Of a DNA stretch of 64,000 nucleotides, positions 7,336 to 59,706 are shown in pieces. The notes under the pieces are model-generated. The model ran no database searches and was not told the origin of the DNA. It saw nothing but the letters and a program-made list of their open reading frames with translations. Each line of letters starts with the position of its first letter. The first letter of the stretch is position 1. This stretch comes from Vigna angularis (lineage: Eukaryota > Streptophyta > Magnoliopsida > Fabales > Fabaceae): contig NC_068975.1 in assembly GCF_016808095.1 (NCBI RefSeq), forward strand, positions 15,879,501-15,943,500, in the 5' to 3' direction. The position numbers and the translations under genes were made by a program.

Positions 7336-8348
7336 GTATCTTGTTCTGAGCTAACAAGGCATCATTGGGTTTGATCCATGGTTGATTAAGGTTCCCACTG
7401 AGATTACTTTGGTAGAATTGAGTGCCCATATATTTAAATTTTTGTCTGAATTGCATCCAGTAAACATTAGGCACAAAACTCTACAAAATATTTGTTAGCA
7501 CAAAAAGATGGAGAAGATAGATAAATCAAAGGATATAATTGAAAAGATAGGAAGATAGGAAATAAAAACAGAAAAATAAAAACAGAAAATAAAATAAAAT
7601 AAAATAAAAATAAAAACAGAAATTAAAATAAAAACAGAAAATAATCCTTTTCGACATCCCTATTTATGTACGAATGTCTCAATTGGGTCCTCGTTTTTTA
7701 AAGTATATCAAAATGGTCCCTAATTTTGAAAATTGATATCAATTGAGACCTTTCCGTTAAGTTGGCTGGACGGCGTTAAAAAAATTGATGAGTGGATGCT
7801 GAGATGACGAACGAACGCTCGTCCACCAGCGAACGAACGCTCGTCCACCAGCGAACGAACGCTCGTCCACCAGAGAACGAACGCTCGTCGACATCTTACT
7901 GCTGGACGACCGTTCGTTCCACACTGGACGACCGTTCGTTCGGTGGTCGACGAGCGTTCGTTCGCTGATGGACGAGCGTTCGTTCGCTGGTGGACGAGCG
8001 TTCGTTCGTCAACTCAGCATCCACTCATCAATTTTTTTAACGCCATCCAGCCAACTTAACGGAAAGGACTCAATTGATATCAATTTTCAAAATTAGGGAC
8101 CATTTTGATACACTTTAAAAAATGAGGACCCAATTGAGACATTCGTACATAAATAGGGATGTCGAAAAGGATTAAACCTAAAATAAAATAAAAACCGAAA
8201 AGTAAAATAAAATAAAATAAAAACAATAAAATATAATCAGAAAAAATAAAAACAGAAATTCAAATTTCAAAATTCAAGTCAAAGATAATCAATAATCAAA
8301 CAAATAAACTAGTTAAACCACGAGTCCCCGGTAACGGCTCCAAAAACT
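7336..8348 (-). mobile_element. Truncated family A 5' internal region, split by a MITE
   Basis: Bases 7339-7545 match the gag fragment at 12443-12640 of the next copy. They are followed by an A-rich AAAATAAAAT leader and a primer site at about 8322-8339. Homology stops abruptly at about 7336, where ACGTC repeat DNA begins, so the rest of this copy is lost. A 0.53-kb palindromic MITE (7642-8178) sits in the leader here but not in the 12.6-kb copy. It therefore arrived after the two copies separated. Confidence 0.75.
7642..8178. mobile_element. Foldback MITE, copy 1
   Basis: Almost the whole element is one inverted repeat. The left arm starts TAATCCTTTTCGACATCCC, the right arm ends in its complement, and the centre is near 7908. 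Each arm carries several 22-bp units of the type GAACGAACGCTCGTCCACCA. The second copy at 59144-59706 is nearly identical over its length. It has no coding capacity of its own. The target duplication could not be fixed because the flanks are low-complexity A-rich DNA. Confidence 0.85.
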
Positions 8349-9652
8349 TGATGACAAATGTATGAACACCGAAAAACGGCGCCACAAACTTGTTTAACAC
8401 TCGGCAAGTGTGACCGAATCGTATCAAGTAATAAAACTAGGTAAGACCAAGTATCATTTTCCCAAAGGACTCACAGCCTAGTTAGTTATATGATTTGTTG
8501 ATTTTTTAAGACTTGTGAACGATTGGTTGTAGGTTTTAATGCAAAAGACAGTAATTAAACATGTATGCATGAATGTGATCAATGGCAAAAAGAGTAAAAC
8601 AAACACGTAATGAAAATAATATGGATGAGTATCTTGTTGGGGTTATCAATTTCATCTTATCCACTCTCATATACTTTAGGAATTCATCAATCTTTTCATC
8701 AATGTTAATGTCACTCTCAAAATCACCTTGTCAAGAAGGCCTATCCTTAATTACGAGTTCATACAATTCCTAGCATTCCTAGTAATTAATTCTTAAGTGC
8801 AGAAGCTTAAAGGCAACCAATATGCTATTGGGAGAAATTCCCCGGATCTAGATTTCCCCGTACGTTCCCATATCGAAAAAATCACTGATCATGGCAATGA
8901 ATGAGTTAAACAAAGCAAGCATTAAGCAAAGAGGAAAAACCCTAACTAATGATGAAAGAAAGCATAAGTCTTAAAGTAAGATGTTAAAACAAATTCCATA
9001 TATGAGAGTTTCACAAGACTACATTGATTCCCCAACAACAATACAAGGTTTAGTTCACCATATTCATGGTGAATCTAGATGAATAATAATGAAAGAATGA
9101 AAGATAAAACCCTAGAAAGGTGAAGAGGTAGCCTAAGCATCCAAAATCTTCCTTCAAGGGGTGGAAAAGAGAGTGTTTGCTTCGTCCCAGCCAAAGATAC
9201 AAACCCTAGGAACACCTAAAGCTTATATACTATTCGTAAAATTACAGAAAATTAGGCCCAAGCCCAAAATAGTGCCGCTTAGCGGTAAACTACCGCTCAG
9301 CGGTAACTGCGTGAGTTGTTTTCCTCTCCTCAGCGGCATTTTCACCCCTCAGCGGAGCCAACGTGAATTTCTGAGTGCCGCTCAGCGGTAAACTGTCGTT
9401 GAGCGGTAGTTGCGGCTTCTCCTTTTGCACTTTTTGATGTCTTTTCTGATTCCATTTCTATCCTTCTTCACTTCTTTCACCAAATTCACCTTAAAACCTG
9501 CATAAAACACTGAAATCAAGCATAAACCTGTCCAGCTCTCTTATTTCTAAAAATATGACCAAAAGCATGATTTCAAGCTAGTTTCTAAGTGTTAAATGTT
9601 GCTTTTAGTATCAAATTTAAGCATGAAAATAACAGTTTTTCAACTGTTATCA
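8349..9652 (-). mobile_element. Family A LTR, left copy of the 8-14 kb complex
   Basis: Read on the minus strand it starts at 9652 (TGATAACAGTTG) and ends at 8349. It matches 12945-14246 with only scattered differences by eye, so the two are recent. Left of it is a primer site and leader, as for a 5' LTR. Right of it is a polypurine-tract complement (CAACCCCAAACTT), as for a 3' LTR. It is shared between a truncated element on its left and a fuller one on its right. The short ORF at 9161-9391 is part of the LTR and not a gene. Confidence 0.85.
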
Positions 9653-11383
9653 CAACCCCAAACTTAGAACTTTGCTTGTCCTCAAGCAAACAAAATGTAA
9701 CTCAATCTTCTACCAATCTGTACAATGGTTCACTCATTCAAAAATCCTCTTTTCAAGATAAGTAAAAACTTCAATTAAACTCATGACAAAGATTTTAATC
9801 AAGACATGCACATGCTTTGGTTGTTCACAAAATCACTTAATACCCAACAAATGCTATTTTTCATGAATAATCAATCAACTAAGCATGGATGTTCATGTGG
9901 TCATGGAATCTTTCCTCACTAGGTAAAGTGTTTCACTCAAACACAAGTGTATAAGAGGTAATCACTCATTCACTCTACTATCACAGTGTCACATGAATTG
10001 ACTTTGCCTTTCATTTAACCATAATCAAATACACTCACAAGCATGCATCATCACAAAGACTTTTCAATGGCTTATAATGTGGCTGGGCTAACAAGAAAAT
10101 TGGTTTTTTCTAGATCACAAAACCCTTGAGTTAAGAGAATCATATAGACACAATCATTCTTATTTATTCCCAACTTTCCTTTGCATTGAGCTTTGCTTTT
10201 TCTTTTCTTTTCTTTTCTTTCTCTTTCTCTTTTCACATACTTAATTCTTAGCTCTTAACTCAATGCTTTCAATTTCCCTTTCTATTTTCCAACAACCCCA
10301 AACTTGAACATTTGTCAATACCACAGAATATATTTTTTTTACTTAACTCAAGGTAAAGCTTTCAACAAGGGTTTTAAATTTATGTTCAAGGCTAAGGGTT
10401 CAAATGATAGAACACATAGTGGTCTCTTTTGGTGGCTTATTTCATGCAATTTGGCTAATATAAAGGTTTCCAACAAACAACCTTGATCATATAATGCAAA
10501 CAAGCAAGTAATTCAATCATAACAAACCTGGGCAAAGTCATTCATGCTTTCAAAGTAATAGCATCAATCAAAAAAATTCTGGAGCTCAAAACCTCACATA
10601 TAAGCTGATTCACATTTGACATACACATCCTGCTCAATATCACAATCACAATCACAATAACTTGCATTTGTTCACGAAGCTTGTGAACCACCTGTATAAG
10701 CATGTAATGTGCACATCTCACCATCAATCTATATCAAAGCATCATTCAAGCATTACTTATCAAACGATCACAATCATCAACAAACCATCATAATAGATAA
10801 AGTTTCCAATTGAGTACATCAAACCCTAAACAAAAACAAATAAGTGAATAATAAAACAAATCCTGCTCTAGTGCTTTGAAAAACTCAGCCCCATAAATGA
10901 TGCTCTCTCCCAACCCCAAACTTAGATGGAAAACTAGTGAACAAGTGAGTGAAAGGAAGATTTTCTCAAGAGGGGTGAGGAAAAAGTTGTAGAGATCCTT
11001 TGAAAAAGTATGTAGGAGTATGTGTGCAGAGAAGAGTATGAAAAGAAAAACTAAGGCGCAGCTTAGGGTATAAAAATACCCTAATGGGCTCGGGTTCCGC
11101 TGAAGGGCAACCTAAGCCCCTTCTGCGACACTACCGCTCAGCGGCACTTACGGGAAGTGCTCTCCTTCTCTTTAGCTTAACCTAAATGCGTCCTAAACAT
11201 ACCCCTAACTGGCTTCCTGCAATTAAGGTCTCAGATCACTCAAACATTCAATCCCTATCATGCAACTAAAGCAGAATAAAAACAAACAATACAGATAAAA
11301 TCAATCAACTGGGTTGCCTCCTAGGTAGCGCTTGTTTAACGTCACGAGCCTGTTTAACGTCACGAGCCTGACCCAAAATCCAC

Positions 11384-11494
11384 CAACACCCATCAGTAGG
11401 TGCAAAACTTTCTTACCAACACCCATCAGTAGGTATATACAAACATAGTATCCTTTAGTATGTACTCTTCCGCCTAACATCCATCAATAGATGT
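11384..11494. repeat. TACTGATG-loop hairpins
   Basis: Four short imperfect hairpins share the loop CATCAGTA or close variants (CTTTAGTA, CATCAATA). The best is ACATC-CATCAATA-GATGT at 11477-11494. The set corresponds to those at 19888-19964 and 43552-43628, and to the longer array at 31848-32164. Confidence 0.6.
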
Positions 11495-11569: not shown

Positions 11570-12500
11570 TTAAATCACTGGGTTGCCTCCCAGTAAGCGC
11601 TCTTTTAACGTCACTAGCTTGACCCAATAAAGCTCATGTTCCATCTTCTTTTTCTTCTTTCTACTGAACTTCTTCAGAAATTTGATCAAACCAGGAACCT
11701 GATGCAATGTCTCAATCATAGGAACTTTAATCTCCAATTTCTTGAAGATTTCCATAAAGCGCTCAAATTCCTTCTTCCTATGATACTTCTTTGGATGAGG
11801 AAGAGGTTTTTCATATGATTCTTTCTTTTTTTCTCTCGTCCTCTTTTTCTTCACTCAAATTTTCTCTTCGTCTTTCTCTTCTCTCTCTTTTCTCTCTTCG
11901 TTTTCCAACTCAACTTTTTCAGCATTTACACTCACTAGCACTTTACACACTTCCCTGGGGTTAACCTTAGTATTAGCCCCAAAATTCTTGTCAGGCCTTT
12001 CTTCCAACAGCTTATTAATTTGACCCATTTGAATCTCCAAGTTTGTAATAGCAGCTTCAGTTCTCTTTATAGTGGATTCAGTTGCCTGTATGAATTGCTG
12101 AAGAGTTTCTTCCATCCTTATTGATCTTTCATTAAGTATAGAAATATGTTTCCATAAGGTTGGTTGTTGCTGTTTCTTGTTAAATTGCCCAGTTTATCCA
12201 GCTTGCCCACTTTGTCCTTGACCAATACTTGGGTGTGGTTTCCACCCTTCATTGAAGTTTCCCTGACAGTATGGAAATTGATTGGCCCTAAAGTTAACAT
12301 CCTCCAAAGCTTCTGCTGGAAAGGCGCATTGACCATTGACATGGTCACCTCCACATAATTCACACAACTGTAATTGAACCTGTGCAATAGCCTTTAACTC
12401 TTTTGGCAGTTATGCAAGTGTTTTTGTGAGATTCTCCAATTGTTGAGTTAGTATCTTGTTCTGAGCTAACAAGGCATCATTGGCTTTGATCCATGGTTGA
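11570..12500 (-). pseudogene. gag C-terminal remnant with zinc knuckle
   Basis: Minus-strand fragments match the C-terminal half of family A gag. They include QQLENLTKTLA, a CX2CX3HX4C knuckle (CELCGGDHVNGQC), FPYCQGNFNEGWKPHPS, and a coiled-coil-like stretch at 12115-11855. The knuckle spacing of three residues before His is as I remember it for Athila-type Gag. In-frame stops and frameshifts break it. Nothing of the protease core remains. The left end carries only the short peptide that follows the integrase tail in other copies. Confidence 0.7.
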
Positions 12501-12920
12501 GTGAGGTTCCCACTGAGATTACTTTGGTAGAATTGAGTGCCCATATAGTTAAATTCTTGTCTGAATTGCATCCTGTAAACATTAGGCACAAAACCCTACA
12601 AAATATTTGTTAGCACAAAAAGATGGAGAAGATAGATAAATCAAAGGATATAATTGAAAAGATAGGAAGATAGGAAATAAAAACAGAAAAATAAAAACAG
12701 AAAATAAAATAAAATAAAAATAAAAACAGAAAATAAAATAAAAAATGAAAATAAAATAAAATAAAATAAAATAAAAACCGAAAAATAAAATAAAATAAAA
12801 TAAAAACAATAAAATATAAACAGAAAATAAAAACAGAAAAAATAAAAACAGAAATTCAAATTTCAAAATTCAAGTCAAAGATAATCAATAATCAAACAAA
12901 TAAACTAGTTAAACCACGAG

Positions 12921-12938
12921 TCCCCGGCAACGGCTCCA
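12921..12938 (-). promoter_or_regulatory. Primer binding site, tRNA-Asp type, one mismatch
   Basis: TCCCCGGCAACGGCTCCA on the plus strand equals the 3' end of plant tRNA-Asp(GUC) except for one base (T for G). Read on the element strand it is the minus-strand primer site, a few bases from the LTR end at 12945. Confidence 0.8.
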
Positions 12939-12944
12939 AAAACT

Positions 12945-14246
12945 TGATGACAAATGTATGAACACCGAAAAACGGCGCCACAAACTTGTTTAACACTCGG
13001 CAAGTGTGACCGAATCGTATCAAGTAATAAAACTAGGTAAGACCAAGTATCGTTTTCCCAAAGGACTCACAGCCTAGTTAGTTATATGATTTGTTGATTA
13101 TTTAAGACTTATGAACGATTGGTTGTAGGTTTTAATGCAAAAGACAGTAATTAAACATGTATGCATGAATGTGATCAATGGCAAAAAGAGTAAAACAAAC
13201 ACGTAATGAATGATATGGATGAGTATGTTGTTGGGGTTATCAATTTCATCTTATCCACTCTCATATACTTTAGGAATTCATCAATCTTTTCATCAATGTT
13301 AATGCCACTCTCTAAATCACCTTGTCAAGAAGGCCTATCCTTAATTACGAGTTCATACAATTCCTAGCATTCCTAGTAATTAATTCTTAAGTGCAGAAGC
13401 TTAAAGGCAACCAATATGCTATTGGGAGAAATTCCCCGGATCTAGATTTCCCCGTACGTTCCCATATCGAAAAAATCACTGATCATGGCAATGAATGAGT
13501 TAAACAAAGCAAGCATTAAGCAAAGAGGAAAAACCCTAACTAATGATGAAAGAAAGCATAAGTCTTAAAGTAAGATGTTAAAACAAATTCCATATATGAG
13601 AGTTTCACAAGACTACATTGATTCCCCAACAACAATACAAGGTTTAGTTCACCATATTCATGGTGAATCTAGATGAATAATAATGAAAGAATGAAAGATA
13701 AAACCCTAGAAAGGTGAAGAGGTAGCCTAAGCATCCAAAATCTTCCTTCAAGGGGTGGAAAAGAGAGTGTTTGCTTCGTCCCAGCCAAAGATACAAACCC
13801 TAGGAACCCCTAAAGCTTATATATTATTCGTAAAATTACAGAAAATTAGGCCCAAGCCCAAAATAGTGCCGCTCAGCGGTAAACTCCCGCTCAGCCGTAA
13901 GTTCGTGAGTTGTTTTCCTCTCCTCAGCGGCATTTTCACCCCTCAGCGGAGCCAACGTGAATTTATGAGTGCCGCTCAGCGGTAAACTGCCGTTGAGCGG
14001 TAGTTGCGGCTTCTTCTTTTGCACTTTTTGATGTCTTTTCTGATTCCATTTCTATCCTTCTTCACTTCTTTCACCAAATTCACCTTAAAACCTGCATAAA
14101 ACACTGAAATCAAGCATAAACTTGTCCAGCTCTCTTATTTCTAAAAATATGACCAAAAGCATGATTTCAAGCTAGTTTCTAAGTGTTAAAGGTTGCTTTT
14201 AGTATCAAATTTAAGCATGAAAATAACAGTTTTTCAACTGTTATCA
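12945..14246 (-). mobile_element. Family A LTR, 5' LTR of the 9.6-14.2 kb copy
   Basis: Full-length LTR, complement of TGATAACAG...TCATCA, ending at 14246. It is inserted into another family A LTR, because 14247 onward is plus-strand LTR sequence starting in U3. U3 has several CCGCTCAGCGG-type palindromes (13866-14000). The ORFs at 13755-13985 and 13836-14024 lie in the LTR and are not genes. Confidence 0.85.
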
Positions 14247-16211: not shown

Positions 16212-17559
16212 CAACCTCAAACTTAGAACTTTGCTTGTCCTCAAACAAATAAGATATAACTCACTCTTCCACCAATCAATACAATGGTTCAACACATTCA
16301 AAAACTCTTTCTTCCAAGATAAGTAATTACTCAAATCAACTCATCAAATAGAATTCAGTCAAGATGTACACATGCCTTGTTTAAAATCACTCATCATGGT
16401 GTCCACATAATCACATAATATCCAACAGATGTTATTCTCATGAATGATCAATTAACTAAGCATAGATGTAATCATGTATTCATGAAACTATTCCGTACTA
16501 GACAAAGTATTTCACTCAATATCACAGGTGTATATAGCGGTCACTCCTTCACTCTGCTTATCCCAATTTCACATAGAACAAAATTGCCTTTCATTTACCA
16601 CAATTAAACATACTCATAGAGAGGTATCATCACAAGGGCTTTCTATGGCTTGTAACGTGGCTGGGCTAAGAGAAAAATTGGTTTTTTCAAGATCAGAAAA
16701 TCCTTGAGTTAAGAGAGTCATTCATAAATTTATCATTCAAATACAATATCTCTTTAGACAAACCAATCTCACTCATTCCCAACTTTCCCTTTTTTGCATT
16801 GAGCTTTTCTTTCTTTACATTCTATTTTCTTTTCTCTTTTTTTTTTCATACTTGCTCAATGCTTTTCATTACTTTCTTTTTCAATTCTCTCAATCAACCC
16901 CAAACTTGAACCTTTATCAATACCACATCATGATTCTCAACTTAACTCAAGGTAAAGATTTTCACAAAGGGTAGGATATGACACAAGCTCAACTTTATCA
17001 ATACCCCAAACTCAACACTTTGTGCTCTCTTTCATTTGGGCTAAAATCATACATTGGCTAAGAAAAGGGTAATAAAAAATGGCCTTGATCATATGACACA
17101 AGCATGCAAGCAATTCAATCATAGAAACCTGAACAAAGTCATTCATGCTTTGAAAAAGAATAGCAATCATTCACAACAAATACTCTGGAGTTCAAAACCT
17201 CACATATAAGCTTAATTCAATGTTCCACATACACCAACTACACATTCTTCTTAGCATCATAATCACAATCATAACATCTTGCATCTGTTCACACAATTTG
17301 TGAACAACCACCTGTATATTAGCATCTTGTGCAACATCTAAACATTAGTCAATATCAAAGCATCATCAAGAAGTACTCTTGACACGCAAATCAATATCAA
17401 ACCATCACATCAGATATAGGTCTCAAACTGAGTACATCAACACCTATTCTAAAAAAACATAAGCAAAATAAAGTTCACAAGACAAAGATAAGAAACATCC
17501 TGTTCTACTGCAAATAATATTCATTACTAAATGCTATCATCATCCTCTAATATCAATCT

Positions 17560-18770
17560 GAGTCCTCCTCCTCCTCATCATCTTCCTCTTCTTCATCACC
17601 ATCTTCATAATCATCATCTTCATCATTATCTTCCATGGCCGAAGCTTCAGCTGCTCCAGCTCCACTAGCATGTGCCTGATCCTCTAGCCATCCCACCACA
17701 GTGTTAAACTCATCTATCGTTCACTGCCAGCTAGGGGGTGTATCATACAGCCCTATAATCATCTCTACAATGGCCACTTTCCCTCTATGCAATGCCTGCA
17801 TCCTAGACTACATTAGGGACATATACATGTCCCTCATCTGAAAAGGTCATGCATCTTGAGGCTGCACATGTGCTGGTGGTGGTCCCCTCCTATGAACTCT
17901 AGGAGGATGTGGTGGTGGCACTTGCTGGGCCGCCTCATCCAGCATGTAGTACTGGTTATAATAGGAAGCATCAATCTCCTTCCTTGGTCGCTCCATCGGC
18001 GGTGTGGAAGTATTCACCCCAACTAACTCACAGAGATGTGTGATCAAAGATGGATGCCCCAAAGGTGCTTTAGTGTTCACAGAATTGGCACAAGTCTGAA
18101 TCTCATTTGCTATGACCTGCCCAATATTAATATTCAACCCTTTAAGCACATAATAAAGGAAGATGGCCCTAATGGCAGTTATATCAGACACATGAGAACA
18201 CGATTGAATGTTGGCATGAGTGAACGTCATCCAGTACTTTGCCAAAGGAGTCAAATGGGATCTCCTACTATGAATGGGCGCATCATTCCTGTTCCTCTGG
18301 AAGTGTCCTCCAGGTACACACAATGTCCTCTCTATATCATCAAAATCTGCTCCCTCCTCCATACTCAGTGCAAACTCACACTGTTCACTAGCCCACTCAG
18401 TATGCAAAAACATGTTAATAGTATCAGGATCATATCGAATAATCTTTCCTCTCACATAGCTCATGTACTTCTCTGTATTAGTGTTGCCAAATGGCCTTGC
18501 ATTGGTGTCAAATTCCTTGACTACTGCTATGTTTGCTAGTGTAGGGTAAGCAACTACATTCTCCCATCCTCTTCTTTCTAATTCCTCTCCAAATTGCAGG
18601 GTCAAGGATGGTATCTACCCCACTTTTCGCTCCATCAAAAGTCTTCGATCCTGAACTATTTGGAAGTGTCTCTCATGCTTATGAGAAAGGAATTTGTTTG
18701 AGTAGAAACGTTTCGGCTCGTTTCTCTTGTTTCCCATGGTTTTAACTCTCTTCCCTGATGAGGAGGCCAT
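17560..18770 (-). pseudogene. Transposase_32 (plant transposon protein) ORF of family A
   Basis: Reading leftward, it starts MASSSGKRVKTMGNKR at 18770. A TAG lies near 18614. The long open part is 18605-17847. It shows AVVKEFDTNARPF and VRGKIIRYDPDTIN near the start, LTPLAKYWMTFTHANI and IRAIFLYYVLKGLNINIGQVI in the middle, and a Pro/His-rich tail. The order VREFY...VRGK...LTP..W..F...S..S...LLY.I..G..INIG.II..EI is that of Pfam Transposase_32 as I remember it. A stop at 17847 and later stops break the acidic C-terminus, which by comparison with 40329 should end near 17560. Its role in the element is unknown. Position after pol is where Athila elements carry an env-like or accessory ORF. Confidence 0.75.
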
Positions 18771-19795: not shown

Positions 19796-20120
19796 TGGGT
19801 TGCCTCCCAAGTAGCGCTTGTTTAACGTCACAAGCCTGACCCATGAATCCTCCAGCATCCTTCAGTAGATGCATATCTTTCTCACCAACACCCATCAGTA
19901 GGTGTGTATAAGCATAGTATCCTTCAGTAGATACTCTGTCACCTAGCATCCATCAGTAGATGCTATGCCATAACAATCTCATAATAAAATAAAACAATGT
20001 TCCAAAGTTTTAAATTACATCACCAAAATAAACAATAACTCAAAGAAATTAATTTTTTTAAATCACTAGGGTGCCTCCCAGTAAGAGCTCTTTTAACGTC
20101 ATTAGCTTGACCCAATAAAG
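19796..20120. repeat. Paired GGGAGGCAACCC boundary motifs
   Basis: On the element strand, GACGTTAAACAAGCGCT followed by GGGAGGCAACCCAG ends near 19796. A related GACGTTAAAAGAGC...GGGAGGCACCC block lies at about 20066-20120. The pair brackets the hairpins at 19848-19964. The same pair occurs at 11310-11635 and 43461-43772. The short motif resembles a conserved block after pol in many plant Athila/Tat elements. It could mark an RNA signal or splice region for the 3' ORF. That is inference. Confidence 0.5.
19848..19964. repeat. TACTGATG-loop hairpins with different perfect stems
   Basis: Three adjacent hairpins share the loop CATCAGTA or CTTCAGTA but have different fully paired stems. They are ACACC/GGTGT (19888-19905), AGTATC/GATACT (19916-19935) and AGCATC/GATGCT (19945-19964). 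A weaker one is near 19850. Different stems with one loop is the pattern expected of covariation. Confidence 0.75.
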
Positions 20121-29656: not shown

Positions 29657-31029
29657 CAATAACAGTTGAAAAACCGTTATTTTTATACTTAATTTCGATA
29701 TTAAAAACACCCTTATTGACTTAGAAGCTTGCTTGAACTCATGTTTTTGCTTTAGTTTTGTAAATAAGAGAGTTGAAGATAAATTTAATGGTTTTGTGCT
29801 AGATTCCCTTGATTTTGCAGGCTATTGGAATGATTTGAAAGAAGAGTTAAAGTACCGAATGGTTGGAATGAAGAAAAGTTAAGCATAATGCAGAATAGCC
29901 AACAAGAATACAGAAAAGTCAACCAGTCAACCATAGTGCAGAATAAGTTGCGCTGAACGCCAATTTTTGTTGTGTCACGCTTGCCAAAATTGCCGTTGAA
30001 CGTTATTTGAAGAATCACACTTACCATTGAGCGCCAAAAGTGCCGCTGAGCGCCATTTAAGTGGGCTTGGACCTGTTTTCTGTTATTTTTATGGGCTTGG
30101 ACCTGTTTTTCTGTTATATTTATGTTCTATTTAAGGACTTGCACGTCTTAGGGATTGTATCTTTTGATGGCTTGAGCACAGAAACACACTTTTCACCCCT
30201 TGGGGGTAGATTTGGAGATGGTGATGGCTCTCCCCTTCTCTTTCTCGGGTTTTTCTATCTCTTCCATTCTTTCATTCCATTATTCATCTAGTTCTTCCAT
30301 GACGATGGGGAGCTAAACCTTATTTGTTGTTGGGAAAGATGTAACCTCTTAAAACTCTCATGTATTGAATTGTTTCTTGATTATATATGATTTACTTCAT
30401 TAATTGTTAGGTTTTTTCCTCTACACTCTATGCATGCTTTGTTTAACTCATTCAATTGCATGAGCATTGATTTTGTCGATATAGACACATACGGGGAAAT
30501 CTAGAACTGGGGAAATTCTCCCGGAAGCAATATTACCTAGACATAGGAGGATCAGTTTCCTTTAAGCTTTTATGCGAATGTAATGCATGATTAATTGCTA
30601 GGGAGACAAGACATTGTGAACTAGTAATTAGGATTAGGCTTTCTTCACCGAGCATCGAGTTTAAGGTAAATTAGAAAGTGGCAATAACATTAATGAAGAA
30701 GACGAATTCATATATGCATGAGAGTAAACTAGGTGAAATCTAAAACCCGACAACAATATCATCAACTTCATTCATTCATTCTTGTCTTTGGCCTCAATTG
30801 ATCAAATTGCATTCATGTTTATTTTATTGCATTTGCATTCAAAAACCCCAAAATTTGTTCTTTAGAGTCTTAATTAGTTGAGTAATCACATAACTGTTTA
30901 GTGCCGTGAGTCTCTTGGGAAACAATACTTGGTCTTACCATTTATTATTACTTGATACGATTTTGAACACTTGCCGAGATCTTAACAAGTTTTTGACTCT
31001 GTTTTTGGGGATTAAAAATTTGTTTATCA
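29657..31029 (+). mobile_element. Family A LTR, 5' copy, plus orientation
   Basis: Matches 33515-34915 along its length and ends TTTATCA followed by a primer site. Its first two bases are CA instead of TG, so the terminal dinucleotide is mutated. It contains repeated ATGGGCTTGGACCTG blocks before the TATA region. The ORF at 30061-30291 is LTR sequence and not a gene. Confidence 0.85.
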
Positions 31030-31035
31030 AGTTTT

Positions 31036-31053
31036 TGGCACCGCTGCCGGGGA
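31036..31053 (+). promoter_or_regulatory. Primer binding site, tRNA-Asp type, degenerate
   Basis: TGGCACCGCTGCCGGGGA lies seven bases after the LTR end. It differs from the perfect complement of tRNA-Asp at two positions. Confidence 0.8.
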
Positions 31054-31099
31054 CTCGTGGTATAACTATTCTATTTGTGTGATTCTTAACTGATTAGAC

Positions 31100-31410
31100 T
31101 TTTTATCTTTTTATACTTTTTATCTTTTTAATTTTTTATCTTTCTATCTTTCTATGTTTTTCTCTTTTATCTTTTTCTCTTTTTATCTTTTTATCTTTTT
31201 AGTTTTTTTATCTTTTTATCTGTTTATCTTTTTATCTTTTTATCATTTTATCTTTTTACCTTTTTATTTTTTATTTTTATCTTTCTATCTTTCTATCTCT
31301 TCATTTTTTTTTCTATTTAATTCTTTATCTTTTTATCTTTCTATCTTTTTATCTTTTTATCTTTTCATCTTTCTATCTCTTCCTCTTTTTTATCTTTTTA
31401 ATTTTTTATC
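31100..31410 (+). repeat. (TATCTTTT)n-like low-complexity leader
   Basis: Pyrimidine-rich simple repeat directly after the primer site. The next copy at 34985-35300 has the same type of repeat. In the copies at 7560-8300 and 12660-12850 the element strand reads as T-rich with TTTTATTTTATT units instead. The leader is thus low-complexity in all copies but differs in unit. Confidence 0.7.
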
Positions 31411-31599
31411 TATTTGTGCTAATTGGGTGCTCTAGTGTAGTGTTTTTTAGTGTTTGCAGCATAAAATTCGAAAATTTGTACTAGGAGCACAAGATCATCA
31501 AGAGAAGAAGGTTGAAGAAGGTTGCAGGACGCGCCTAGGCGCCCCATTAAGGGCACTGAGCGCCATCCTTCAAGTGTCATGTTCACCAAGTTTTGTGCA

Positions 31600-31755
31600 T
31601 GAAGTAGTTAAAAATATCAAAGAGAATGGAGTTATTGAGATTGAGGCTCCTTATTCAAGGAGGGTAAAGATGGTGAACAAGAAGATGTTGTAGATAAGTT
31701 GGTGTGATGAAAGCAAAAGGAACACCAACATCATAGATGCAGATTGTACTTAATG
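31600..31755 (+). pseudogene. Integrase-tail remnant
   Basis: Encodes VKNIKENGVIEIEAPYSRR followed by VNKKML, a stop, and ISWCDESKRNTNI. This matches the tail at 20122-20330 and 43774-43971. It is followed by a GACGTTAAACAAGC...GGGAGGCAACCC boundary block at about 31763-31801. It is a relic only. Confidence 0.7.
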
Positions 31756-31847
31756 GTGTCAGGCTCGTGACGTTAAACAAGCTCTTATTGGGAGGCAACC
31801 CAATTTCTGACTTTTTCTTTTGGATTTGAATTTGCTTTGCACGAATT

Positions 31848-32164
31848 ACAGCATCTACTGATGGATGTTGGACAACATCTACTGAGGGATGCTAGGAGGA
31901 CTCAGATGACAGCATCTACTGATGGATGTTGCTACGATGATGATGAGAAAGATCAGCATCTACTGATGGATGCTGATGAGAAAGATTAGCATCTACTGAT
32001 GGGTGCCCTGTGATTATGCATCTACTGATGGATGCTATGATGATGAAGATTCAGATGACAGTATCTACCGATGGATGCTACTGAGAGCATCTACTGATGG
32101 ATGTTATGCTACTAGACATCTACTGATGGATGTTACTGACAACATCTACTGATGGATGTTGTTG
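31848..32164 (+). repeat. Ten-unit TACTGATG hairpin array
   Basis: Ten irregularly spaced units of type NNCATC-TACTGATG-GATGNN. Some stems are perfect and differ from each other: ATCAGCATC/GATGCTGAT (31952-31977, 9 bp) and ACAACATC/GATGTTGT (32139-32162, 8 bp). Others have a single G-T wobble. Spacers between units vary in length and sequence. No long ORF runs through. The array is longer here than in other family A copies, so unit number is variable. Confidence 0.8.
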
Positions 32165-33500
32165 GATCAGGATTTTTATGTTTTTGCTTTATTTTATTTG
32201 AATTTTGTTTTATTTTTATTTTTGCTTATGTACTTGGTTTAATGGGTTGTGTGCAATGGTTTGGTATGATGTGATAAACTGTTGTTTGTGATGAGTAATA
32301 TTCTTGTGTTTGCTATATTGTTTTATGATGCATGTTGAGTCAATGATTGTTATAGCTTTTTAAGCATAGATGGTGGTTTCTCAGAGTATTGTTAAAAACA
32401 GATGCATGATTTCAATTGTGATTAATATGTTAGGCATGATGTTTATCAAATTGTGGAACTTGAGTTAACTTGTCAGAGATTAGGCTCCAAAGTTTTTGAT
32501 TGATTTAATGTTATTGGTTAGGAAGCATGATTGATTTTGCCTAATTTTCTATGATTGAACCACTTGCTTGCTTGTTACACATGATCAAGCCCCTTTTTTC
32601 TTCTCCCTTAGAGCCAATGCAAATAGGTGAACCCAACAAAGAACAATTTTTCTATAACCTTTTCACCTTGAGCCTAAATTTGAAAAGTGGAAAAACCCTT
32701 TTTGAAATCCTTACCTTGAGTTAAGTAGAGTATGTTTTTGTTGTAATGGAGAATGGTTCAAGTTTGGGGTGGTGAGAAACCGGAAAGAACTTTGTGAAAT
32801 TTATCAAAGAGCATTAAGCAAAAGAAAAAAGAAAAAGAAAAAGAAAAGAAAAGAAAAGAAAGAAAAGAATAGGTTGAGCTCAATGAAAGGAAAGTTGGGA
32901 ATAAGTTGAAGATTTGGTTTCTCACATAAAAGGAGAAAGAGAGATTATTGTTAATGTGAATAAATGAATTGTGCACTCTCTTAACTCAAGGAATTTTGTT
33001 GTCTAGAAAAACAAATTTTCTTCTTAACCCAGCCTCAATACAAGCCTTGAAAAGTCCTTCTGATGATAACTTGCTTGTGAGTGTGTTTGATATGCGGTTA
33101 AATGAAAGGCAAAGTTGATTCATATGACATTGTGATGGTAGAGTGTAAGAGTGACACCTCATTATACACCTTTGAGTTTGAGTGAAACACTTTTAAGTGC
33201 TTGAGTGAAACACTGTCTTTAGTGAGGAATTTTTCCATGCACTATATGATAACATTCTTGCTTGGTTGGTTGGGTATTCATGAGCTTTGCATCTATTGTG
33301 TATGTCTTGATTATGTGAGCACCATAATTAAAGCTTGATTGGCTAAAGCATCACTATATCTTGACTAATCTTTCTATGATGAGCATTCATGAGTGATTTA
33401 CTTGTCCTAAGAGAAAAATGTTTTTTGGTGTGCTAGACCATTGTAGTATGAGTATTTTGTTTCAGCCAAGTTAGATTTTCCTTGAGGACAAGCAAAGTTT

Positions 33501-33514
33501 CAAGTTTGGGGTTG
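33501..33514 (+). promoter_or_regulatory. Polypurine tract of family A
   Basis: CAAGTTTGGGGTTG directly precedes the LTR start TGATAACGG at 33515. The same motif, complemented, borders the LTRs at 9653, 16212 and 39067. It would prime plus-strand synthesis. Confidence 0.7.
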
Positions 33515-34915
33515 TGATAACGGTTGAAAAGCCGTTATTTTTATACTTCATTTTGATATTAAAAACACCTTTTTTGACTTAGAAGCTTGCTTGAACACAT
33601 GTTTTTTCTTTAGTTTTATGAATAAGAGAGTTGAAGATGAATTTAGTGGTTTTGTGCTAGAGTCCCTTGATTTTGTAGGATATTGGAATGATTTGAAAAA
33701 AGAGTTAAAGTACCGATTGATTGGAATGCGGAAAAGTCAACCAGAATGCAGAAAAGTCAACCAGAGTGCAGAAAAGTCAACCAAAATCCAGAAAAGTCAA
33801 CCACTCAACCAGAATGCAGAAAAGTCAACCAGAATGCAGAAAAAGTTGCGCTTAGCGGTAGGGGACGCTGAGAGCCAATATTTGTTGTCTCACGCTTGCC
33901 AAAATTGTCGCTGAGCAATATTTTTAAGAGCCGCATTTACCGCTGAGCGTCATTTAAGTGGGCTTGGACTTGTTTTCTGTTATTTTTATGGGCTTGGACC
34001 TATTTTTCTATTATTTTTATGTTTTATTTAAGGACTTGCACGTCCTAGGGATTGTATCTTTTGATGGCTTGAGTACAGAAACACACTTTTCACCCCTTGG
34101 GGGTAGATTTGGAGATGGTGATGGCTCTCCTCTTCTCTTTCTCGGTTTTTCTATCTCTTCCATTCTTTCATTCCATTATTCATCTAGTTCTACCATGACG
34201 ATGGGGAGCTAAACCTTATTTGTTGTTGGGAAAGATGTAACCTCTTAAAACTCTCATGTATTAAATTGATTCTTGATTATATATGCTTTACGTCATTAAT
34301 TGTTAGGGTTTTTCCTCTACACTCTATGCATGCTTTGTTTAACTCATTCAATTGCATGATAATTGATTTTGTCGATATGGACACATACGGGGAAATTCTC
34401 CCGGAGGCAATATTACCTAGACATAGGAATAGGAGGATCTGTTGCCTTTAAGCTTCTGTGCGAATGTAATGCATGATTAATTGCTAGGGAGATAAGACAT
34501 TGTGAACTAGTAATTAGGATTAGGCTTTCTTCACCGAGACATCGGGTTTAAGATAAATTAGAAAGTGACATTAACATTAATGAAGAAGACGAATTCATAT
34601 ATGCATGAGAGTAAACTAGGTGAAATCTAAAACCCAACAACAATATCATCAACTTCATTCATTCATTCTTGTGTTTAGCCTCAATTGATCAAATTGCATT
34701 CATGTTTATTTTATTGCATTTGCATTCAAAAACCCCAAAATTTGTTCTTTAGAGTCTTTATTAGTTGAGTAATCATTAATTGTTTAGTGTCGTGAGTCTC
34801 CTTGGAAACAATACCTGTTCTTACCATTTATTATTACTTGATACGATTTGGTACACTTGTCGAGGTCTTAACAAGTTTTTGACTCTGTTTTCGGGGATTA
34901 AAAATTTGTTTATCA
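33515..34915 (+). mobile_element. Family A LTR, second plus-strand copy
   Basis: TGATAACGGTTG...TTTATCA, about 1.4 kb, with a short GTCAACCAGAATGCAGAAAA minisatellite in U3 (33730-33840). It serves as 3' LTR for 31030-33514 yet is itself followed by a primer site and leader. The arrangement is therefore LTR-internal-LTR-internal. Confidence 0.85.
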
Positions 34916-35390
34916 AGTTTTTGGCGCCGCTGCCGGGGACTCGTGGTATAATTATTCTATTTGTGTTATTCTTAACCGATTAGACTTTTTATCTTTTTAT
35001 ATTTTTTATATTTTTTATTTTTTTTATCTTTCTATCGTTTTATCTTTTTCTATTTTATCTTTTTCTCTTTTTCTCTTTTTCTTTTTTTTATCTTTTTATC
35101 TTTTTAGTTTTTTTATCTTTTTTTTTCTTTTTATCTGTTTATCCTTTTATTCTTATTTTTATCTTTTCATCTTTTTATCTTTTTCTCTTTTTATCTTTTT
35201 ACCTTTTTATTTTTTATTTTTATCTTTCTATCTTTCTATCTTTCTATCTTTTTATCTTTTTATCTTTCTATCTCTTCATCTTTTTATCTTTTTAATTGTT
35301 TATCTGTTTGGGCTAATTGGGTGCTCTAGTGCAGTGTTTTTTAGTGTTTGCAGCATAAAATTCAAAAAACTATAATAGGAGCACAAGATA
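34916..35390 (+). mobile_element. Truncated family A leader after the second LTR
   Basis: Primer site TGGCGCCGCTGCCGGGGA at 34922-34939 (one mismatch to tRNA-Asp), T-rich leader at 34985-35300, and gag start at about 35350. Homology to 31480-31495 stops at AGGAGCACAAGAT (about 35389). The CACTA transposase frame takes over immediately. Confidence 0.75.
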
Positions 35391-35391
35391 C

Positions 35392-36310
35392 ATGAAGATC
35401 TTAAAATTCGAATATATGGGCCAGTTTTCTTGAGGTGGATGTACCCGGTTGAAAGATACATGAAGTTCTTAAAGGGATATGTTAAGAATCATTTGAGACC
35501 GGAAGCTTCGATTATAGAGCGCTGCATTACAGAGGAAGCCATTGAATTCTGCTCAAGTTATATGCCAAGTTGTGACCCAATAGGACTTCCAAAGAAAAGA
35601 CATGAAAACAGATGTGAAGGAAAGGAAGTTCGAGGAGTAAGGATTGAACGTGTTAGTGAAAAGAAGTTAATCAAGCACATTTTTACATTTTAAACAACAC
35701 CAAAAATGTTATTCCTTACATTTCCCAACACATTGATAAAATTAAGTCATCACATCCACGTATGAGTGAAAAGTGGACACTTAATGAACATAACAAATCC
35801 TTTTTAGCTTGGTTTAAGAAAAAGATTTATGCGACTCCGAATGTTTCTGAAAATGTATTAAGACTAGCTCATGGACCTAACACTAATGTGATCACTTTCG
35901 ACGGCTATTACATAAACAATTACTTGTTTTATTCAAAGGAGGAAGACGATAAAAGTAGAGTTCAAAATAGTGGAGTTACCCTACAAGCTGAGGCTGTATG
36001 TACACTTTTCCAATTCCAAGGATAAGAATCCAATTACAACATCAATTAGTTATTTTGGAATAATACAAGAAATTTGGGAAATTGATTATGTCACTTTTAG
36101 AGTTCTAGTTTTCAAGTGTAAATGAGTTGACAATAATTCTGGTGTGGTGACAGAAGACCTCGGATTCACTTTTGTGGATCTTAACAAAATGAGTTACACG
36201 GATGCACCATTTATTATGGCTAGTCAAGCAAGACAAATATTCTATGTCACTGACCTAGTGAATCATAAATGGTCAGTGGTATTGGAAGGCAGAGCCATGC
36301 ACACAACTGA
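35392..36310 (+). pseudogene. CACTA transposase (TNPD-type) C-terminal part
   Basis: The frame enters from the junction as YGPVFLRWMYPVERYMKFL and continues LKGYVKNHLRPEASI and EAIEFCSSYM, the DUF4218-type segment of plant CACTA transposases. After a frameshift near 35690, 35762-36025 gives KWTLNEHNKSFLAWFKKKI, RLAHGPNTNVITFDGYYIN and VQNSGVTLQAEAV. After another shift near 36020, YFGIIQEIWEIDYVTFRVLV reaches a TGA in place of a conserved Trp codon near 36122. Then come EDLGFTFVDLNKMSYTDAPF and QARQIFYVTDLVNHKWSVVL, the DUF4216-type segment. The catalytic N-terminal half is absent. Confidence 0.85.
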
Positions 36311-37808
36311 TGATAAAGACTCATTAGATATACTTGAGACAAGTTCCTTCTCATCAAGAACCATTGAAAATAAGGTTGATGATGTCACATCCCGTCGGGT
36401 TAATGAGAAACCAGTGACGGTGGAATTTGATCCCCGAACATTTGTGCCTATTGGGGCACATGCAGTATCGTTCAAGAGTTACTTGGGCGTGATGGCAAAA
36501 TATCATGTCCCTATTGTCGCTACCTCTTGGGATGTCCCACAGGTTGAGAAAAATCTACTATGGCAGGATATTTTGGTATGTTTAAGATGTTTTACTTCCA
36601 TCATTGACTTATTTTTGTTGTTCATGCTTTAACATTAATTTTGTTTTAAACAGGAAAATTGGGATATCCCTAATGATGAAAGGATAAGGAAGAAGATTTT
36701 ATCCCACATTGCAGTCTGGTGGAGGGACTTCAAGACGAGAATGACAAGTCAATACGTCTTTGGCTCTAAACAGAACGACACTCCTTATACAAAATATAAA
36801 ATAACTGAGGAGGAGTGGGTGGAGTTTAAAGAATCTAGACTTACTCCTGAGTGGCAGGTATGTTTTTTAATATTTTGCTCTAGTCACACAAGATGTTAAT
36901 TTTTGATTTATGCTTAATGATTTTCATTTTTTCATAGGTGAAAAGGATAGCCGCCCAGCAGAGGCAGAAGCTTAATGATACACCACACGTACTGTCACGT
37001 GGTGGTTATGCGTTATTAGAGAAAAAGATGAGAAAATGTCGCGCTGAGGAGTTAGGTCTTGAGTCACCTGATCTAGCACCTCCACCAGCCAGACATGAAT
37101 TGTGGAAGGTTGCACGGACAAAGTCGTCACTTAGGAAATGGTTAGTAGCATCAGGCAACATGTGCAAGTTGAATTAAAGGAAAGCATGGGTGAACGCTTA
37201 AGAATGCTCGAAGAAAAACTTGCGATGATCACCCAACAACAGCAACATCAACAACAACAGCAACATCAACAACAACAGCAATAGCATCAGCAACAGCAAC
37301 AACAACAGTCACAGTAGGAGGACACCCCTACAGATGATCCTACTGCACCTCGTGTGAGCACCAAAGGCTCATGCTCTACTGCAGATCGTAGTAATGACAA
37401 TATTCAGTATGAGTTTTTGGTTGATGATAATCCTCCGCGCGTAGTGGCATTGGGACAACAGATTGCAGGAGGCCAGACCATTCATGGTGCTCCTTTATTG
37501 CCCACTCACGCATGGGTAAGTATTGATGATCCAAGAGACCCCTAGGCTCGAGTGTCAGTGCCTACATTTGAAATCCAATTCGTGGGGGAGGCCTTAGGCA
37601 CATTTATAGCATGGCCTAAGGCTATGATCAAGCCATATTTTGGCCCACCAACGGTATTATAATCTTCTTTTTATTATGTTAAATCTTCAAGTTATAATTA
37701 AATGATTCCTAACTTTGTAAATGTGAGTTGCAGGTCTACCGTGCTGAGAAATAACCAATTGTTCAACCTGTGAATGAGGCTCGTGAGGAAGTAGAAGACC
37801 ATGATCCT
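36311..37808 (+). pseudogene. CACTA Transposase_24-like (TNPA-type) gene with introns
   Basis: Inferred exons: to 36575 (donor GTATGT), 36654-36857 (GT...AG, donor GTATGT), 36938-37653 and 37734-37808. Coding blocks are FKSYLGVMAKYHVPIVATSW, ENWDIPNDERIRKKIL, WWRDFKTRMTSQYVF, YKITEEEWVEFKESRLTPEW, and QRQKLNDTPHVLSRGGYALL, as in the Transposase_24/Ptta family. A Gln/His run encoded by CAA/CAG repeats (about 37239-37312) follows, with TAG stops, and there is a frameshift near 37140. The last exon reads ...EDHDP into the ATCCT duplication and resumes as ISILTS at 53368. So this gene and the Ulp1-like part at 53363-54458 were one reading unit. It has stops in several exons. Confidence 0.75.
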
Positions 37809-39066: not shown

Positions 39067-40328
39067 CAACCCCAAACTTAGAACTTTGCATGTCCTCAAG
39101 CAAACAAGATGTAACTCAATCTTTCACCAATCCGTACAATGGTTCACCACATTCAAAACTCCTTCTTTCAAGATAAGTAATTACTCAAATCAGCTCAACA
39201 CAAAGAATTCAGTCAAGATGCACACATGCTTTAGTGTTCACATAATCACATAATATCCAACTAATTCTATTCTTATGAATGATCAATCAACTAAGCATAG
39301 ATGTAAACATGTGCTCATGGAATCTTTCCTCACCAAATAAAGTGTTTCACTCCAACACACAAGTGTATAAGAGGTCACTCATTCACTCTACTATCACAAT
39401 GTCACATGAATTAACTTTCCCTTTCATTTAACCACAATCAAACACACTCACAAGCAAGTATCATCACAAGGACTTTTCTATGGCTTATAATGTGGCTAGG
39501 CTAACAAGAAAATTGGTTTTTCTAGATCACAAAATCCTTCAGTTAAGTGAATCATCTAAACACAACCATTCTTCCTTCTTCCCAACTTTCTTTTGCATTG
39601 AGCCTTTCTCTTTCTTTCTTTTCTTTCCTTTTCATTTTGATTTTCATATGCCTAGCTCAATGCTTTTCATATTCCCCTTTTTAAACCACCCAACAACCCT
39701 AAACTTGAAAATTTATCAATATCACAAGATATCTTCAACTCAACTCAAGGTAAAGCTTTTCAAAAAGGGTTTTTTATCATGTTCAAAGCTAAGGGTTCAA
39801 AGGATAGAACACATTGTGCTCTCTTTTATTGGGCTAAAATCATTTGGCTAATAAAAGGTAACAACAGATGGCCTTGATCATATGACACATACAAGCAAGT
39901 GATTCAATCATAGAAACCTGGGCAACGTTATTCATGCTTTCAATGTAATAGCATTCATTCACAAAAAACTCTGGAGTTCAAAACCTCACATATAGGCTCA
40001 TTCAACATTCCACATACACATCCTACTTAGCATCATAATCACAATCACAACATCATGCATTTGTTCACATAGCTCGTGAACAACCACCTGTATATCAGCA
40101 TATAATGTGCACAATCTCAACACCAATTAGTGTCCAAGCATCATCAAACCATACTCATCATGCATAAATCACAAGCAAACCATCATAGCAGATAAAGTTT
40201 CAAACTGAGTACATCACAACCCTATTCTAAAAACATAAGCAAATAAGTTCAAGAGTACAAAACATAAGATAACAAATCCTGCTCTAGAGGTGATGGCATT
40301 CATCAGTAGATGTTATCTCAGCTCCTCA
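39067..40328 (-). other. Non-coding 3' part of family A
   Basis: About 1.26 kb between the end of the Transposase_32 ORF and the 3' LTR, with no supportable gene. Corresponding stretches are 9653-10870, 16212-17559 and 32165-33500. The CT-rich run near 39600-39650 and the short 39480-39851 ORF are part of it. Confidence 0.6.
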
Positions 40329-42818: not shown

Positions 42819-43773
42819 CCCTACATCAAACACAATTCACAAAACCACAAGACATATTGTTAAGCATTAGTAAACCACAAAACAACACCCTAAGATCAGT
42901 CCTATCACCGTTGAGGGCAATCAAAACCCCTCAGCGCAACTTATACAGCAAGCCAGCAGCCAAAAGAAGCAAAAAAAACCACTCTGCCATAGGAATGTGA
43001 ATAAATCATCCCCCAACAGCAATGCTCTCACCAAACCCCAAACTTAAATTAAAAACTTGGTGCAAAAGTGAGTGGAAGAGAGGTTTTGTGAGGGGGGAAG
43101 AAGGGAAAAGTGAGGAGAACTCTTTGGAGAGTGCTTGAAAGTGTGTGGGAAGAGGGAGATCTGAAAAAAGAAGCAAAGTCGCGTCCTAGGGTACAAAAAT
43201 ACCCTAATGGGCCTAATCCCGCTAAGCCCAATTGAACCAAACCAGTCCACCTAACTCTATAGTATTCGCGCTCAACAGTAATTACCGCTGAGCGGCATTT
43301 GCGGCACCTACTATCCTTCTTCCTAACTTGCCCTAGGTGTGTTATACTCATGCCTCTCATTCACCTCATGCATATATGTACTCACATCACTCATACATTT
43401 CATGCCTATCATGCATCTAAAGCATAATCAAAACAAACAAACAAAAATAAAGTAAATCAACTGGGTTGCCTCCCAGGTAGGGCTTGTTTAACATCACGAG
43501 CCTGACCCAAAATCCTCCAGCACCCTTCAGTAAGTGCAAATCTTTCTTACCACACCCATCAGTAGGTGTAAACAAACCTAGTATCCTTTAGTAGATACTG
43601 AACCACCTAGCATCCATCAGTAGATGTTATACCATAAAATCTCAAACAACATAAATCAATGTCCCAAAGTTTATAAAATTACATAACCAAAATCAAAGAA
43701 ATTAATGTTCTCAAATCACTAGGGTGCCTCCCAGTAAGCGCTCCTTTAACGTCATTAGCTTGACCCAATAAGC
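42819..43773 (-). other. Family A spacer with boundary motifs and hairpins
   Basis: No gene. Boundary motif copies lie at about 43461-43509 and 43721-43772 and bracket the hairpins at 43552-43628. Another polypurine-tract-like ACCCCAAACTT lies at about 43034. The short ORFs at 43044-43360 are shadows. Confidence 0.6.
43552..43628. repeat. TACTGATG-loop hairpins
   Basis: ACACC-CATCAGTA-GGTGT (43552-43569), AGTATC-CTTTAGTA-GATACT (43580-43599) and AGCATC-CATCAGTA-GATGTT (43609-43628, one G-T wobble). These are the same three stems, in the same order, as at 19888-19964. Confidence 0.75.

Positions 43774-59054: not shown

Positions 59055-59141
<87 letters not shown>
59055..59141. repeat. (TA)n microsatellite
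   Basis: About 86 bp of TA dinucleotides inside the LTR, next to the MITE. Such runs are frequent MITE targets. Confidence 0.9.
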
Positions 59142-59143
<2 letters not shown>

Positions 59144-59706
59144 GGTTTAATCCTTTTCGACATCCCTATTTATGTACGAATGTCTCAATTGGGTCCTCGT
59201 TTTCTAAAGTGTATCAAAATGGTCCCTAATTTTGAAAATTGATATCAATTGAGTCCTTTCCGTTAAGTTGGCTGGACGGCGTTAAAAAAATTGATGAGTG
59301 GATGCTGAGATGACGAACGAACGCTCGTCCACCAGCGAACGAACGCTCGTCCACCAGCGAACGAACGCTCGTCCAGCAGCGAACGAACGCTCGTCGACCA
59401 CCGAACGAACGGTCGTCCAGTGTGGAACGAACGGTCGTCCAGCAGCAAGAGGTCGACGAGCGTTCGTTCTCTGGTGGACGAGCGTTCGTTCGCTGGTGGA
59501 CGAGCGTTCGTTCGCTGGTGGACGAGCGTTCGTTCGTCATCTCAGCATCCACTCATCAATTTTTTTAACGTCGTCCAGCCAACTTAACGGAAAGGACTCA
59601 ATTGATATCAATTTTCAAAATTAGGGACCATTTTGATACACTTTAAAAAACGAGGACCCAATTGAGACATTCGTACATAAATAGGGATGTCGAAAAGGAT
59701 TAAACC
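59144..59706. mobile_element. Foldback MITE, copy 2
   Basis: GGTTTAATCCTTTTCGACAT at the left and its complement ending GGATTAAACC at 59706. Nearly the whole 563 bp is one palindrome with 22-bp GAACGAACGCTCGTCCACCA-type units in each arm. Because of the symmetry both strands have a 108-codon ORF with the same start and end residues (59298-59624 plus, 59226-59552 minus). These are by-products of the palindrome. It is the sister of the copy at 7642-8178. Confidence 0.9.

Follow-up and report, generated by a model that had tools for sequence, protein, structure and literature searches.

Symmetric repeats with a short centre are known from the Sireviruses (Ty1/copia), whose high-copy RM boxes lie in the LTR and, in env-bearing elements, are clustered 5' of env; protein binding of the enhancer or silencing type has been proposed for them (accessible part of PMC2829016). 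In the Ogre elements (Ty3/gypsy), short arrays of tandem repeats follow the coding region, also in nonautonomous pol-less forms, and these arrays expand in length (accessible part of PMC7004042). A 3' ORF of the PF20167 type is found in Athila, as in sunflower Athila 14 (accessible part of PMC11728184). The hairpin family described here lies in a window of 64,000 nucleotides (C6:15879501-15943500) of the 448 Mb assembly of Vigna angularis (adzuki bean), and the RM boxes are its closest known precedent. The two share the high-copy symmetric repeat with a short centre and a position near an env-like ORF; however, RM boxes are defined by their arms, with the core CGG-CCG (accessible part of PMC2829016), whereas the bean hairpins keep the centre and vary the arms. 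Their arms are CATC/GATG, CACC/GGTG and TATC/GATA rather than CGG-CCG, and the host elements belong to another superfamily than the Ty1/copia Sireviruses, as indicated by a PF20167 3' ORF and by a Ty3_capsid match, below its cut-off, in one locus (L079). Moreover, the bean set lies between two copies of a motif, M, and hairpins also occur after the 3' ORF.

Like the Ogre 3' repeats, the bean hairpins are tandem units downstream of the coding region that vary in number, but the accessible text of PMC7004042 describes no constant-loop hairpin with compensating stems. Sunflower Athila 14 likewise shares the PF20167-type 3' ORF, and the accessible text of PMC11728184 does not mention a hairpin array. 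Within the open-licence literature, with subscription journals and figures outside its scope, neither these hairpins nor M were found to be described, and the one literature match to sequence strings, a bacterial prophage paper, is unrelated. Retroviral packaging and dimerisation stem-loops come in groups of several, expose their loops and usually lie near the 5' end. The bean hairpins resemble them in being multiple and in exposing their loops, and differ in lying after pol. As far as we are aware, little is known of cis-acting RNA signals in plant LTR retrotransposons.

Each unit consists of a stem of 5-6 bp and a constant loop, TACTGATG (or TACTGAAG). In the window, TACTGATG is expected 2.2 times and found 16 times, a count reached by none of 100 shuffles, and the loop pattern TACT[AG]ANG with a stem of at least 5 bp gives 17 hairpins against a mean of 0.21 and a maximum of 2 in 200 dinucleotide shuffles, so that chance is no explanation. 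The hairpin family reported in the preliminary description is therefore real and larger in extent than was stated there, and the stems named in it are present in the window. In the sense RNA of most types, the 8-nt loop is predicted to close further to UA-CUGA-UG, leaving a CUGA tetraloop. Several other identities were discarded. Pairing of the loop with its complement inside the element is ruled out by the absence of CATCAGTA from the sense strand of the window's hairpin-bearing elements; a coding repeat is incompatible with a spacing that is not divisible by three (24-44 nt in the array at 31848, 29/29/33 in most of the M-bracketed, type P sets); and the CUGAUG of the loop region, which we take as a resemblance to a hammerhead core, corresponds to no Rfam family, the window giving 0 matches at gathering score against 4227 families. 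An inner register with a 4-nt loop (CATC-TACT-GATG) was dropped as well, its covariation being 0.141 versus 0.124 in shuffles, of which 15 of 500 were as high, and a stemless TACTGATG-type match at 49512 was taken as chance. Pattern scans of viral contigs gave no match to the hairpin pattern.

On the minus strand of the window, three type P sets of four hairpins (H1-H4) are present, at 19855..19963 (loops 19951, 19922, 19893, 19860), at 43520..43627 (loops 43615, 43586, 43557, 43525) and, with a broken H2, at 11386..11494. Only the first two had been noticed before, as three hairpins in the same order; the order is indeed identical, but each set has four, the H4 loops being those at 19860 and 43525. 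Each set sits between two copies of M, a conserved motif of 34 bases with seven sites in the window. On the minus strand, M1 and M2, upstream and downstream of the hairpins, are found at 20067..20100 and 19796..19829 for the 19.9 kb set, at 43720..43753 and 43462..43495 for the 43.6 kb set, and at 11579..11612 and 11310..11343 for the 11.4 kb set, where the start of M2 overlaps an 18-bp tandem duplication (11333-11370); the motif scan also places M (GACGTTAAACAAGC..TTGGGAGGCAACCCA) on the plus strand at 31769..31802, ahead of the array at 31848. Over the window and the stretches fetched from elsewhere in the genome, which partly overlap, 69 matches to M were counted. The motif can be drawn as a small hairpin (CTGGG-AGGCAA-CCCAG or TTGGG..CCCAA), with the palindrome AGCGCT ahead of most copies, and only two of six M stretches fold clearly better than shuffles.

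Within P sets, adjacent hairpins are 27-33 nt apart. Of the 27 sets measured, 25 have a distance of 37 nt from the start of the last hairpin to M2; W19 (38 nt) and W11 (55 nt, owing to the 18-bp duplication) deviate. These figures come from 28 P sequences, with L054, whose second M was seen by eye, left out of the measurement, and a leading TGGTGATG entry in some rows of the spacing table is a chance match that forms no hairpin. Hairpins also occur singly on the minus strand: one (type PO, at 40301; 40296..40313) closely follows the end of one copy of the 3' ORF, and in the 19.9 kb element a decayed one near 17520 (17508..17539) comes after the 3' ORF stop. The two flanks of the 11.4 kb element (8179-9652 and 12762-14246) are 97.6% identical over 1487 bp, so this element looks like a fairly recent insertion.

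The array at 31848..32164 (plus strand, type Q) is an expanded form in which ten units were counted, as in the preliminary description (loops 31856, 31880, 31917, 31961, 31994, 32023, 32066, 32092, 32121 and 32147), eight of them with the exact loop. Its element has a sequence after the 5' LTR that we take to be the primer-binding site (31033..31053, plus strand) and, on the same strand, the polypurine-like CAAGTTTGGGGTTG (33501..33514), presumably the polypurine tract, before a 3' LTR that starts at 33515. No ORF of at least 150 aa lies between the array and the 3' LTR, the upstream flank of the array matches the M region after the pol remnant, and two linkers contain GA(C/T)TCAGATGACAG, which in relatives (compare 40301 and L040) encodes the DSDD with which the 3' ORF ends; the 31848 lineage has therefore lost this ORF. 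The array is followed by the flank that normally comes after the 3' ORF, with no such ORF between them, and it seems, from its linkers and flanks, to have been built from the post-ORF hairpin and scraps of the 3' ORF end. The position assigned earlier to the hairpins, between the integrase tail and the 3' ORF, thus fits the 19.9 kb set, downstream of which a PF20167 ORF is found, and is wrong for the 31848 array. The same arrangement is common to seven fetched loci, which indicates that the form itself was propagated. Around this element (29657-35400), LTR, leader and interior are followed by LTR and leader again, with a second primer-binding-like site after the 3' LTR near 34922, so that two elements seem to share one LTR.

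The window is rich in LTR elements, and the hairpins belong to one group of them. A PF20167-type 3' ORF is found in a hairpin element: the 3' ORF fragment at 17847..18605 (minus strand) matches Pfam PF20167 (Transposase_32) with E 1.6e-63 and is 99% identical to LR48_Vigan86s001700 of Vigna angularis. Classified by this ORF rather than by an RT tree, the hairpin carriers are one group of Athila-like (Ty3/gypsy) LTR elements. Gag and aspartic protease also lie upstream of the hairpins, with Retrotrans_gag in L067 and L079, Asp_protease_2 barely over its cut-off in L084 and L085, and a protease match below cut-off in L079. A Pfam scan of five ORFs from four loci gave no RT, RNase H or integrase domain, and by eye no RT or integrase core was recognised in the open frames (at least 55-60 aa) of 16 upstream stretches of 1.7-1.9 kb, two of which, upstream of type R (below), contain nothing nameable. 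No autonomous parent with RT and integrase was seen among the upstream stretches inspected. The integrase-like tail upstream of the hairpins was named by resemblance, as our own assumption, and the window ORF that carries this tail is without a Pfam match. In the 11.4 kb copy the hairpin set is kept and the 3' ORF is gone, and L079 has the 3' ORF region and no P set. Long open gag-pro frames of 479-578 aa, alike by eye, lie upstream of H2-type places in L084 (578 aa), L085 and L087, and perhaps represent a recent spread of gag-bearing elements without RT.

Genome-wide, the 16-base core CATCTACTGATGGATG with at most one mismatch occurs at 5057 places, against 4 for the reversed-pattern control. 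In a blind sample of 21 stretches of 10 kb from chromosome C1, one holds a hairpin set (L010, M-H1-H2-H3-H4-M) and two hold M. Forty sites of C1, hand-picked from the core-match listing (27 isolated and, on purpose, 13 clustered), were fetched; each holds an exact paired core, and the layout shares that follow describe this selection rather than the genome. The type P layout (M-hairpins-M) is present at 18 sites and a single hairpin shortly after the 3' ORF stop at four. Seven belong to the 31848 kind: their downstream flank is similar and they have 4 to about 12 units, M being seen in five of the seven stretches. Another seven (type R) have a different shared flank and no M in the stretch, six of them with 1-3 hairpins after an A-run and one with about ten. 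At three sites the hairpins are fused straight to the 5' leader, with gag-pol missing, and at one an array precedes M. Seven further sites, mostly chosen as close CACC/GGTG-core triplets, are all type P, five with five hairpins. Overall, the tandem units downstream of the coding region number 1 to about 12 per site. The P loci L027-L043 are closely related, so that the number of loci should not be read as a number of events. In L080 with L029, which are one element, a P set and a post-ORF hairpin occur together; M occurs without hairpins in L015 and, at the P position, in L079, and M1 was not found in the L076 stretch. Among the matches listed, hairpin sets are dense at 31.0-32.0 Mb and 46.2-47.1 Mb of C1 (G000). 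About 4.5 kb downstream of the L010 set, a 9-bp hairpin with the stem AGCATT/AATGCT (L023:3887) is possibly the post-ORF hairpin of the same element.

In the lineages that multiplied, stems changed and pairing was mostly kept. Across the 24 window units, 88.9% of cells are paired, versus 82.7% after shuffling (0 of 500 shuffles as high) and 25.7-54.2% in slid versions, and two-sided changes affect five of the six pairs (shuffle mean 2.8; 17 of 500 as high). In the fetched material, of which 226 of 241 units were kept after dropping fifteen that were out of phase or isolated, the stem is fully paired in 9 of the 11 types found at three or more loci versus 15 of the 53 rarer ones (Fisher p 0.0015). 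For types beyond the reach of the first core, the figures are 6 of 7 and 15 of 49 (p 0.0087), one of the six, GCACC/GGTGC, being at three loci only via the second core. The types have common ancestry, so these p values overstate independence and independent compensations are few; one mismatched type, ACATC/GATGC, occurs at 14 loci. The H4 hairpins form a graded series, GCATC/GATGC, GCATC.GGTGC, GCACC/GGTGC, GCACC.GGTGT and ACACC/GGTGT, which runs through U-A, U.G and C-G at pair 2 and through G-C, G.U and A-U at pair 5.

Divergence is also uneven along the set. In six diverged P copies (from an input of 18 of the 28 P sequences used for spacing), the loops are the least diverged part (5.6%), followed by the H4-M2 spacer (6.7%), M (9.1%), the stems (12.6%), the linkers (18.5%) and the M1-H1 spacer (27.6%). 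Neutral decay of the stems, which the preliminary description had raised as the case against a function, applies to part of the changes: those seen in one or two loci look neutral, but the types present in several loci are mostly paired. The favoured reading is that pairing was selected while lineages replicated and that neutral decay followed in dead copies. The wobble counts fit the latter, in that wobble and A.C are nearly equal at pair 5 of the fetched units (32 and 31 of 241), U.G and C.A are so at pair 4 genome-wide (U-A 1072, the number of exact H2-type cores; U.G 51; C.A 47), with no wobble asymmetry, and the 24 window units show a slight one (9 wobble versus 6 A.C), as expected of dead copies. 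Pair 2 has C-G at 2144 places, U.G at 228 and C.A at 23 genome-wide, and this U.G excess, seen at pair 2 only, has in part been passed down within sublineages such as type R.

On whether the sense RNA is the strand that folds, the evidence points both ways, as the U.G:C.A ratios of 228:23 at pair 2 and 51:47 at pair 4 illustrate. The 31848 array folds better than shuffles chiefly as sense (z -5.87, antisense z -2.18), and 19 of the 21 folding types listed are more stable as sense than as antisense single units. By contrast, the window's three P sets have sense z values of -2.36, -1.06 and 0.44 and antisense values of -2.80, -2.94 and -1.90; the antisense values being lower, whole-set folding gives no preference to the sense strand. 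The predicted energy of a unit homodimer is below that of two monomers in all 22 rows listed, as it would be for any near-palindrome.

The constant loop, the mostly compensated stems and the near-fixed spacing at dozens of loci support a structured signal behind the hairpins. What this signal does is a more tentative matter. The leading proposal, which we hold at clearly less than even probability, is a cis-acting RNA module of Athila-like elements that would be read by Gag for picking, pairing or packaging the RNA. Units lie 27-33 nt apart between two M motifs downstream of the gag-pro remnant, and single hairpins or expanded arrays occur at other places of the 3' part. Once folded, the genomic RNA may offer a row of identical loops to be bound by a partner, for which Gag of the same element is the simplest candidate. 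Binding of the loops would then help to pick, pair or package the element RNA before it is reverse-transcribed. For copying in trans, derivatives that have no RT and integrase, and in some cases no 3' ORF either, would depend on the same signal; such a need could explain why they keep it and why some multiply the hairpins, whose number may change by slippage or when strands transfer from one hairpin to a similar one. A cis RNA signal is the best guess because hairpins multiplied in the 31848 kind, and were kept in the 11.4 kb copy, without a 3' ORF. The packaging or dimerisation role suggested in the preliminary description may apply, and the alternative suggested with it, a translation signal for the 3' ORF, is weakened by the same two cases, the former of which even multiplied its hairpins. 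A stronger form of the proposal, unlikely in our estimate, is that of a multivalent RNA handle, with identical loops, exchangeable stems and two M brackets, by which Gag would pick genomic RNA and from whose multiplication nonautonomous parasites would gain. If so, array length would be the outcome of a packaging competition inside one plant genome.

Control of the 3' ORF and a repeat without function are serious rivals. The hairpins could be a palindromic tandem repeat generated by reverse transcription, expanded by slippage, kept paired by template switching in imperfect palindromes and carried along by successful masters. The variable unit number (1 to about 12 per site), the neutral look of changes seen in few loci and the antisense strand of whole P sets, which also folds better than shuffles, are all consistent with such an origin, as are the tandem arrays known downstream of the coding region in nonautonomous Ogre (accessible part of PMC7004042). 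It accounts poorly for loops that are the least diverged part, for the near-fixed distance to M2, for an H4 series that proceeds via U.G and G.U steps and for several multiplied types whose stems differ and are all paired, and it is given a limited chance, the best among the alternatives to an RNA signal. Antisense folding of the P sets lowers the probability of an RNA signal and raises that of this origin and of a DNA site.

Alternatively, the hairpins may control expression of the 3' ORF, as an internal promoter, through splicing or through ribosome reinitiation between pol and the 3' ORF, the post-ORF hairpin acting at the stop or 3' end. The location of the 19.9 kb P set between pol remnant and 3' ORF suits this role, as do the single hairpins after the 3' ORF stop, the coexistence of both forms in the element of L080 and L029, the TATA-like stretch and another polypurine-like sequence that were seen by eye between M2 and the ORF, and the palindromic boxes that likewise cluster 5' of env in Sireviruses (accessible part of PMC2829016). 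Nevertheless, arrays are expanded in the 31848 kind, which has no 3' ORF, the 11.4 kb copy keeps its set without the ORF and L079 has the 3' ORF region without a P set, which makes such control rather unlikely. Least probable, and quite improbable in our judgement, is a DNA-level palindrome bound by a host or element protein as an enhancer or silencing target: the strand evidence is mixed and symmetric repeated boxes near an env-like ORF are a known Sirevirus pattern (accessible part of PMC2829016), but a dimer site should keep its stem letters, whereas here the stems vary and an asymmetric loop is constant.

Returning to the Gag-read RNA module, the hairpins may putatively mark the RNA of the element during copying. 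With its high copy number, constant loop and changing stems, the family provides natural variants on which to test what retrotransposon RNA must keep, and a route to why gag-bearing derivatives without RT succeed.

The window contains further features beside the hairpin elements. An open frame of 363 aa at 355-1446 (plus strand) matches PF20167 only weakly, with 37.2 bits where the cut-off is 45, and has no TACTGATG nearby, and an ORF at 36144-36632 (plus strand) matches DUF4216 (E 1.4e-11), which we take to be a domain of plant DNA transposons. A long fold-back element is present in two copies, at 7642-8178 and 59136-59706, with arms of about 250 bp that are 96-98% complementary; the element contains 22-bp units, CGAACGAACGCTCGTCCACCAG.
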